The translations under genes and the position numbers were made by a program. The notes beneath the pieces are model-generated. The model was not told the DNA's origin, did no database searches, and worked only from the letters and a program-made list of their open reading frames with translations. This document shows, piece by piece, positions 58,086 through 58,288 of a stretch of 64,000 nt of DNA; within the stretch, counting starts at the first letter, position 1; the number at the start of each line of letters is the position of its first letter. The stretch is from Oceanobacillus luteolus (GTDB taxonomy: Bacteria; Bacillota; Bacilli; Bacillales; Amphibacillaceae), in assembly GCF_023715655.1 (NCBI RefSeq), contig NZ_JAMBON010000001.1:248001-312000 (forward strand). Direction: 5' to 3'.

Positions 58086-58193
58086 TTAGCTGCTAGTTAT
58101 GAGAGAAAAATATAAAAATACTAATGTTACCCCAAATACAACAATAAAGAAGATATCCTCCTTGGAAAACTTAGAAAATAATTTACTAAACAT
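58086..58193 (-). CDS. SOS-controlled 35-aa membrane peptide in the place of YneA
   Basis: 35 codons: [20 protein letters not shown], then a hydrophobic stretch to a short Thr-Ser-Ser tail. A basic, amphipathic N-terminus is followed by one membrane helix (about residues 14-32). The ribosome site GGGGAGG is seven bases before the ATG. A near-consensus promoter lies 45-70 bases upstream with a LexA box in its spacer and another at the start of transcription. yneB follows after 23 bases. B. subtilis has yneA here (about 105 aa, membrane helix plus LysM). This version has no LysM domain and no room for one. Likely a division inhibitor by analogy with SidA and SosA; that is inference. Confidence 0.72.
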
Positions 58194-58213
58194 GTATATT
58201 CCTCCCCAATCCA

Positions 58214-58227
58214 CGAACTTTTGTTCT
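58214..58227. promoter_or_regulatory. LexA box 1
   Basis: CGAAC-TTTT-GTTCT, matching the Bacillus consensus CGAAC-N4-GTTYC closely. It overlaps the predicted start of the SOS peptide transcript. Confidence 0.8.
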
Positions 58228-58236
58228 CCAGAACAT

Positions 58237-58265
58237 ATTATCGCACGAACAAATGGTCCTGTCAA
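58237..58265 (-). promoter_or_regulatory. SigA promoter of the SOS peptide-yneB operon
   Basis: On the minus strand -35 TTGACA (58,260-58,265), 17-base spacer, -10 GATAAT (58,237-58,242): close to consensus. Confidence 0.85.
58246..58259. promoter_or_regulatory. LexA box 2 (imperfect), in promoter spacer
   Basis: CGAAC-AAAT-GGTCC, one arm imperfect, exactly filling the spacer of the SOS promoter. Confidence 0.6.
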
Positions 58266-58274
58266 CCATTATTT

Positions 58275-58288
58275 AGAACGAATGTTTG
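58275..58288. promoter_or_regulatory. LexA box 3, nearest lexA
   Basis: AGAAC-GAAT-GTTTG, resembling the B. subtilis lexA autoregulatory boxes, about 65 bases before the lexA start. Confidence 0.7.

Follow-up and report, generated by a model that had tools for sequence, protein, structure and literature searches.

Organisation of the lexA-divergent locus

The window, i.e. the whole stretch of 64,000 nucleotides of Oceanobacillus luteolus DNA that was analysed, carries on its plus strand the SOS repressor gene lexA (58351-58974; TIGR00498, 258.8 bits), the product of which has its nearest named relative in O. indicireducens (91%). Divergent to lexA lies a 35-codon frame on the minus strand (58193-58086) encoding a membrane micropeptide, as evidenced by the conceptual translation of the frame, the family alignment and in-frame constraint, and 23 bases separate its stop from the start of the resolvase-like gene yneB (57406-58062, minus strand; NCBIfam YneB model NF049883, 348.2 bits). 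A terminator scan called a terminator-like hairpin on both strands directly 3' of yneB (57376-57399), suggesting that the peptide gene and yneB, as second gene, probably constitute one operon; excerpts of PMC6051672 describe B. subtilis yneA and yneB as such an operon. Direct reading of the minus strand places a ribosome binding site, GGGGAGG (58201-58207), 7 nt from the ATG. Further upstream on this strand, a promoter scan found the -35 hexamer TTGACA (58260-58265) and, after a spacer of 17, the -10 hexamer GATAAT (58237-58242) with a TG before it, the two hexamers scoring 11/12 jointly. An upstream TTG was considered as start codon and is disfavoured, given that the N-terminus read from the ATG hardly varies (54 of 57 rows have the M and 56 the F).

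Three LexA-type boxes were observed at this locus, near the start of the peptide transcript (58214-58227, core 8/8), in the promoter spacer (58246-58259, core 7/8) and on the lexA side (58275-58288, core 8/8). With a box-like site defined as a core of 7/8 or better and distances counted from the lexA start, 79 loci hold 74 boxes at 120-139 nt, 74 at 90-99 nt and 76 at 60-69 nt, respectively, and three or four boxes lie within 260 nt in 76 of these loci. Box-like sites amount to 11.8 per kb within 260 nt upstream of lexA, compared to 0.35 per kb in lexA coding DNA. The same box pattern was seen upstream of recA- and uvrB-like genes in the window genome, recognised by eye from their first residues. 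Three 8/8 cores occur in the 64-kb window, two of them at the peptide locus, together with 60 sites having a core of at least 7, and at one mismatch the box pattern gave 28 matches in the genome versus 52 for its reversed control. The pattern alone is thus not specific, and the case for LexA boxes rests on their conservation. Elsewhere in the window, a core 8/8 LexA-box-like site is present at 41866-41879, ~84 nt upstream of a minus-strand gene that by eye resembles the B subunit of a type II topoisomerase. In one genome (G046, locus L198) a gene of ~220 codons, HAD-like by eye, sits between lexA and the peptide, which keeps its own LexA-type boxes.

The first-pass annotation of this DNA had recognised here the slot of yneA, a 35-codon ORF with a strong ribosome site, the near-consensus promoter and LexA boxes in the spacer and near the transcript start. 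All of these elements were recovered, and the identities of lexA and yneB are backed by their family models.

Conservation and distribution of the peptide gene

At E 0.1, a search with the window peptide detected relatives in 27 of 28 Oceanobacillus genomes, counting that of the window itself. The sole genome of the genus lacking a match is G008 (L189), which has the slot, but with two breaks in the peptide frame. A family member of 30-35 aa occupies the slot in 74 of 80 named lexA loci, with a length of 30 aa in 33, 31 aa in 39 and 35 aa in 2, so that 30-31 aa (72/74) is the usual length; the 35-aa form results from a 4-residue N-terminal insertion that, in the alignment, is common only to O. 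indicireducens and O. alkalisoli. The six slots without a member belong to a contig end (L101), Amphibacillus (L133 and L137), Streptohalobacillus (L147), Virgibacillus sp. MSJ-26 (L120) and Natronobacillus (L145), where the contig stops 448 nt upstream of lexA.

A profile of the peptide family (A1, 39 rows) matched in 138 of 155 genomes of the bacterial family at E 0.1; at the level of the order, 40 of 299 genomes gave a match at E 0.01. In 37 of these 40 the match fell below 1e-4; weak matches in three YneA-bearing genomes (G201, G296 and G311; E 3e-4 to 6e-3, two with an internal stop) were left out of the 37 as chance. From 26 strong hits outside the family, 20 loci of sister families, chosen for having a hit, were fetched, and all 20 hold the peptide between lexA and yneB. 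The peptide form is present in five families of the order, in Oceanobacillus and many related salt-loving bacilli, and the earlier proposal of a minimal YneA version in this lineage understated the scope.

Across the 74 loci (2701 pairs), pN/pS is 0.35 in the peptide frame versus 0.84 and 1.20 in the shifted frames, and differences are shared among the three codon positions as 0.32, 0.20 and 0.49. The peptide gene is real and widespread, and codon changes are constrained in its frame only; the conservation of the short ORF among relatives, which the first-pass annotation had proposed as a check, thus showed a reading frame that is kept. A chance open frame without product would accord with the short length, but the genus-wide matches, the family alignment, the fixed LexA boxes and the in-frame constraint leave this explanation a negligible probability. 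It is also very improbable that the frame is a leader peptide whose translation controls yneB, its product having no role. Such a leader would suit the shared promoter and the position of yneB 23 bases away; however, the constraint acts on amino acids, and in 8 of the 74 loci (L099, L109, L110, L113, L118, L121, L124 and L125) yneB starts 389-1306 nt from the lexA start while the peptide is still beside lexA. Scanning of three family members against Pfam and NCBIfam models gave no match, suggesting that automatic annotation likely passes the gene over.

Anatomy of the transmembrane-only peptides

The window peptide fits a slot family of transmembrane-only (TM-only) peptides, defined by a length of 27-35 aa, the residues D9, F16 and Y24 and the lexA-divergent slot. 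A length of 30 or 31 aa is seen in 93 of 97 TM-only peptides; their first 12 residues carry a median net charge of +1, the last eight positions are free of charged residues throughout, and an extracytoplasmic tail of the SosA type is absent. By the positive-inside rule the N-terminus should be cytoplasmic. D9, F16 and Y24 do not vary among 57 aligned rows, 54 of which also have L20. The conservation moment at 100 degrees has a P of 0.03, with 170-180 degrees scoring about equally, and thus provides modest evidence that the conserved residues may lie on one face of the helix. The window peptide itself, at 35 aa followed by a stop and, 23 bases on, by yneB, has no Pfam match at E 10 and no LysM domain, in line with its initial description as a single membrane helix without LysM.

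These features bear on an idea that the first-pass annotation had left out of account, namely a TisB-like SOS peptide that disrupts the membrane and would lower the proton motive force and cause dormancy rather than a specific arrest of division. Size class, LexA-type control and the single hydrophobic helix are alike, and a plus-strand promoter-like site at 58172-58200 could yield an RNA antisense to the 5' leader. However, there are three such plus-strand sites between 57350 and 58360, all scoring 9/12, the total of 5 promoter-like sites does not exceed that of shuffles (4.2 +/- 1.6), and no antitoxin RNA was among the Rfam matches over 57000-59100. Rfam matches at 58952-59035 were far under their gathering scores and were dismissed as chance. 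The invariance of D9, F16 and Y24 suggests a protein partner, the last eight residues are uncharged in all 97 peptides, and the slot is common to YneA and to homologous tailed proteins. We consequently regard the TisB-like alternative as improbable.

Relation to YneA and to other proteins of the slot

LysM-bearing YneA, identified by NF010723 above its cut-off, is present in 187 of 299 genomes of the order, and the overlap with the 37 genomes having strong peptide matches is 0 of 299. No NCBIfam family matched the window peptide at E 10, so that it lies outside NF010723 by its curated cut-off. A full-length yneA elsewhere in the genome, named in the first-pass annotation as an argument against its reading, was sought by NF010723 profile search of the window genome and not found: the best match reached 40.6 bits (cut-off 60) and is a 279-aa frame on another contig. 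The genome also contains a 121-aa frame with two LysM repeats, without a membrane helix and with no box-like site in the 2 kb examined. Within the family, some protein passed the NF010723 cut-off in 9 of 156 genomes; among the matches listed, the marked one is a 653-aa frame with several LysM matches, off the lexA contig.

Neither gene was found in 74 genomes of the order, of which 60 were queried and 59 lexA loci obtained, G357 being without lexA. Of these 59 loci, 25 carry a LysM-free protein of 55-93 aa in the slot (families f3, f6, f21, f34 and f35) and six a short form, and in 28 nothing was found there. The short forms belong to f42 (L281), f35 (L307 and L335), f19 (L311), f36 (L308) and f9 (L286); the 28-aa frame of L286 is probably spurious as a TM-only form and still stands in both the tree and the short-form count. 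The lexA and yneB starts are only ~140-195 nt apart in f11 and most f22 loci. The slot of f11 is nearly empty, with starts 141-143 nt apart (L292-L294, L296, L316 and L320-L323).

Comparison of the peptide with the tailed proteins of f3, f6 and f35 gave an hhalign probability of 95.8 (E 8e-9) in an alignment ungapped over the whole peptide, and a profile score of 25.9 versus 9.7 +/- 2.0 for shuffled cores (0/2000), clearly pointing to homology between the peptide and these tailed LysM-free proteins. The f21 tailed proteins scored 33.2 against YneA versus 16.5 +/- 2.7 for shuffles (0/2000), and the one f21 protein scanned aligned with positions 1-35 of NF010723 at E 0.0016, short of the cut-off. 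Judged from these profile comparisons, f21 is a case in which LysM was lost in the slot and the YneA-type helix was retained. The slot proteins of this family that show such a helix without LysM are 55-61 aa long (L290, L300, L302, L314, L328, L331 and L332).

The f3/f6/f35 proteins gave a shuffle P of 0.001 against YneA but an hhalign probability of 5.5 in another register, and among five proteins scanned those of f3 and f6 had no NCBIfam family above cut-off. Direct comparison of the peptide with YneA resulted in core-shuffle P values of 0.14 and 0.10, all-column shuffle P values of 0.03 and 0.02 and an hhalign probability of 3.0, with registers differing between methods, and the shuffle P was 0.77 when the two B. 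subtilis-group YneA sequences were taken alone. For the f42 and f35 short forms, similarity to the peptide stayed within chance (P 0.34). It is by position that the peptide is tied to YneA, and sequence similarity lends this tie weak backing. The earlier claim that the peptide replaces YneA is upheld for position, while descent at the sequence level is less well founded than had been stated; descent of the window peptide from YneA by loss of LysM is nevertheless the likeliest history.

A LexA tree (166 rows) indicates how these forms are distributed. The TM-only rows of f1, f2, f7, f32 and f36 fall within one 58-row clade (39 TM-only and 19 empty; SH-aLRT 99), and the adjoining 19-row clade is mostly tailed (f3, f6, f35 and f42; support 87), with a support of 91 for the branch joining both. 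The f21 tailed forms stand apart, among LysM rows, as do the TM-only-labelled L286, L307, L311 and L335. The TM-only label requires 12 changes on the tree, at least three of them forced by well-supported branches, which argues against a single clean origin of the TM-only form. As the tree derives from a single gene by quick search with midpoint rooting, and 61 of its 162 branches are open, the order of evolutionary steps is tentative.

Homologues in prophage-like and other unlinked regions

Peptide matches unlinked to lexA were inspected in 17 stretches; in L214 the wrong frame was taken, and the weakest matches may be due to chance. Six of the 17 copies adjoin phage-type genes (L209, L210, L212, L213, L216 and L219). 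Neighbours in L210, L213, L216 and L219 are anti-repressor, Cro/CI-type, Erf, RecE-like, excisionase-like or integrase genes, L212 is included because its ORFs resemble those of L213, and L209 is beside a PHROG family of unknown function. The contig bearing the L209 copy is 29,983 bases long and encodes next to the peptide a protein that is 100% identical to one of an IMG/VR contig; the latter has the same length and carries the same peptide. The prophage-like early-region homologues were located at L209:2232, L210:2340, L212:2497, L213:2504, L216:2474, L219:2431 and L222:2377. In L213, L219 and L222 the peptide begins about at the end of an upstream gene of 82-95 aa.

Among the ORFs listed for the prophage-like loci none was recognised as yneB-like, which again speaks against a leader peptide serving yneB; other serine resolvase genes are near the homologues at L211:2356, L215:2513 and L217:2513, the first of which is also near an IstB-like ATPase gene. 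An 8/8 LexA core was present within 250 nt upstream of the examined frame in none of the 17 unlinked stretches. One 31-aa family member gave no match at E 10 in collections of named phages and plasmids, and a neighbouring prophage protein had no match in the phage collection.

Proposed function of the peptide

According to excerpts of PMC13396833 (2026), the membrane helix of YneA binds FtsW at TM7 and is enough to bring the protein to midcell, whereas YneA without LysM fails to block division in B. subtilis, where binding of LysM to peptidoglycan is needed. The first-pass annotation had not weighed this result. The substitutions K5A, E6A, F10A, V11A and F14A are reported there to nearly abolish YneA toxicity, and FtsW V204F to confer resistance to YneA. 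AlphaFold 3 models, not of high confidence by the paper's own words, also put SosA and SidA on FtsW TM7, and the same excerpts state as unresolved how small membrane inhibitors stop FtsW.

Combined with this background, our comparative analysis leads us to favour the reading that the peptide is an SOS-induced, transmembrane-only division inhibitor with FtsW as its probable target. On inactivation of LexA by DNA damage the peptide-yneB transcript would be made, as the promoter and boxes suggest. The peptide would insert with its lysine-bearing N-terminus inside, judging from its charge, and with almost nothing outside; the helix residues D9, Y12, F16, L20 and Y24 (31-aa numbering) may then engage a membrane component of the divisome, most likely FtsW, the partner of YneA, and septal wall synthesis would be held off until repair. 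Standing in the place of YneA and probably descended from it, with the LysM part presumably lost first and the tail afterwards, the peptide would act, for want of LysM, on FtsW inside the membrane and not by gripping nascent glycan.

Several observations argue for this assignment. Slot, length and residues are conserved in five families with the boxes at fixed places, the peptide and LysM-bearing YneA exclude each other, tailed LysM-free proteins fill the slot in 25 of 59 further loci, those of f3, f6 and f35 are homologous to the peptide and those of f21 match YneA, the TM-only rows of five families share one LexA clade, the TM segment of YneA alone suffices for FtsW binding, and SosA has no LysM. 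The inert LysM-less YneA, the essential SosA C-terminus, the unclear direct homology to YneA and the 12 changes on the tree count against it. An unlikely alternative is that the conserved peptide serves as an SOS regulator in the membrane through a different partner (a PBP, FtsL or a protease), or that it binds FtsW and leaves its activity intact, as YneA-TM does in B. subtilis. YneA-TM localises without inhibiting, and FtsL, PBP2B and PBP1 are also told of as YneA partners in the excerpts of PMC13396833. A silent binder, however, would not obviously be expected to be under selection in five families or to recur in prophage-like regions, albeit this is a matter of argument only.

In the presumed FtsW of the window genome (C121, 403 aa), the proline corresponding to P206 is retained, and the position of V204 is occupied by alanine. 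In L355, the presumed FtsW of an f21 genome, F stands at the position of B. subtilis V204. The alanine-scan residues of YneA were also considered as evidence of kinship. The window peptide has the spacing K-E-x3-F-I-x2-F, compared to K-E-x3-F-V-x2-F in a B. subtilis-group YneA (L172), with the numbering shifted by two. In a looser form, this spacing is seen in 35 of 39 peptides, compared to only 4 of 51 YneA N-termini; we therefore gave the match to K5, E6, F10, V11 and F14 little weight, and the agreement, although striking by eye, may be coincidence.

A broader scenario, which we put forward tentatively, is that in a large group of bacilli an SOS brake has been whittled down, a helix with LysM giving way to a helix with a tail and this to a bare helix of ~30 residues that would jam FtsW, the septal wall polymerase, in the membrane, and that prophages of the same hosts may carry copies to stop host division. 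LysM seems essential in B. subtilis YneA, yet the whole clade keeps the helix only, and the peptide family thus directly tests the need for LysM. If the peptide still stops division, the wall-binding half of a known brake is dispensable, and a genetically encoded inhibitor of ~30 residues would serve as a probe of FtsW.

Comparison with known systems

Searches of the open literature found no paper on such a peptide. The closest counterpart is B. subtilis YneA (NF010723), which shares the slot divergent to lexA and before yneB, the LexA-type boxes and an N-terminal helix with a basic start. Unlike YneA, the peptide is without LysM and has almost no extracytoplasmic part, its family being 27-35 aa long compared to 88-113 aa for 59 LysM forms, and YneA-TM by itself is described as inert in B. 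subtilis in the excerpts of PMC13396833. SosA of Staphylococcus aureus (77 aa) is likewise divergent to lexA, with one membrane helix and no LysM; however, its C-terminal part outside the membrane, of which the peptide has none, is functionally essential according to PMC6851548.

Caulobacter SidA resembles the peptide in its SOS control, its membrane helix and its likely target FtsW. It is of the same size class as the peptide. Unlike the peptide it belongs to another phylum; furthermore, AlphaFold 3 models in the excerpts of PMC13396833 place SidA on the opposite side of FtsW TM7. TisB of E. coli is a 29-aa SOS-induced membrane toxin, but a type I toxin with an antitoxin RNA, of which the peptide locus gives no clear sign. 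The tailed LysM-free slot proteins (e.g. L278, L283, L295 and L317) share the slot and the homologous helix and differ from the peptide in being longer, 55-93 aa overall, with a hydrophilic tail.
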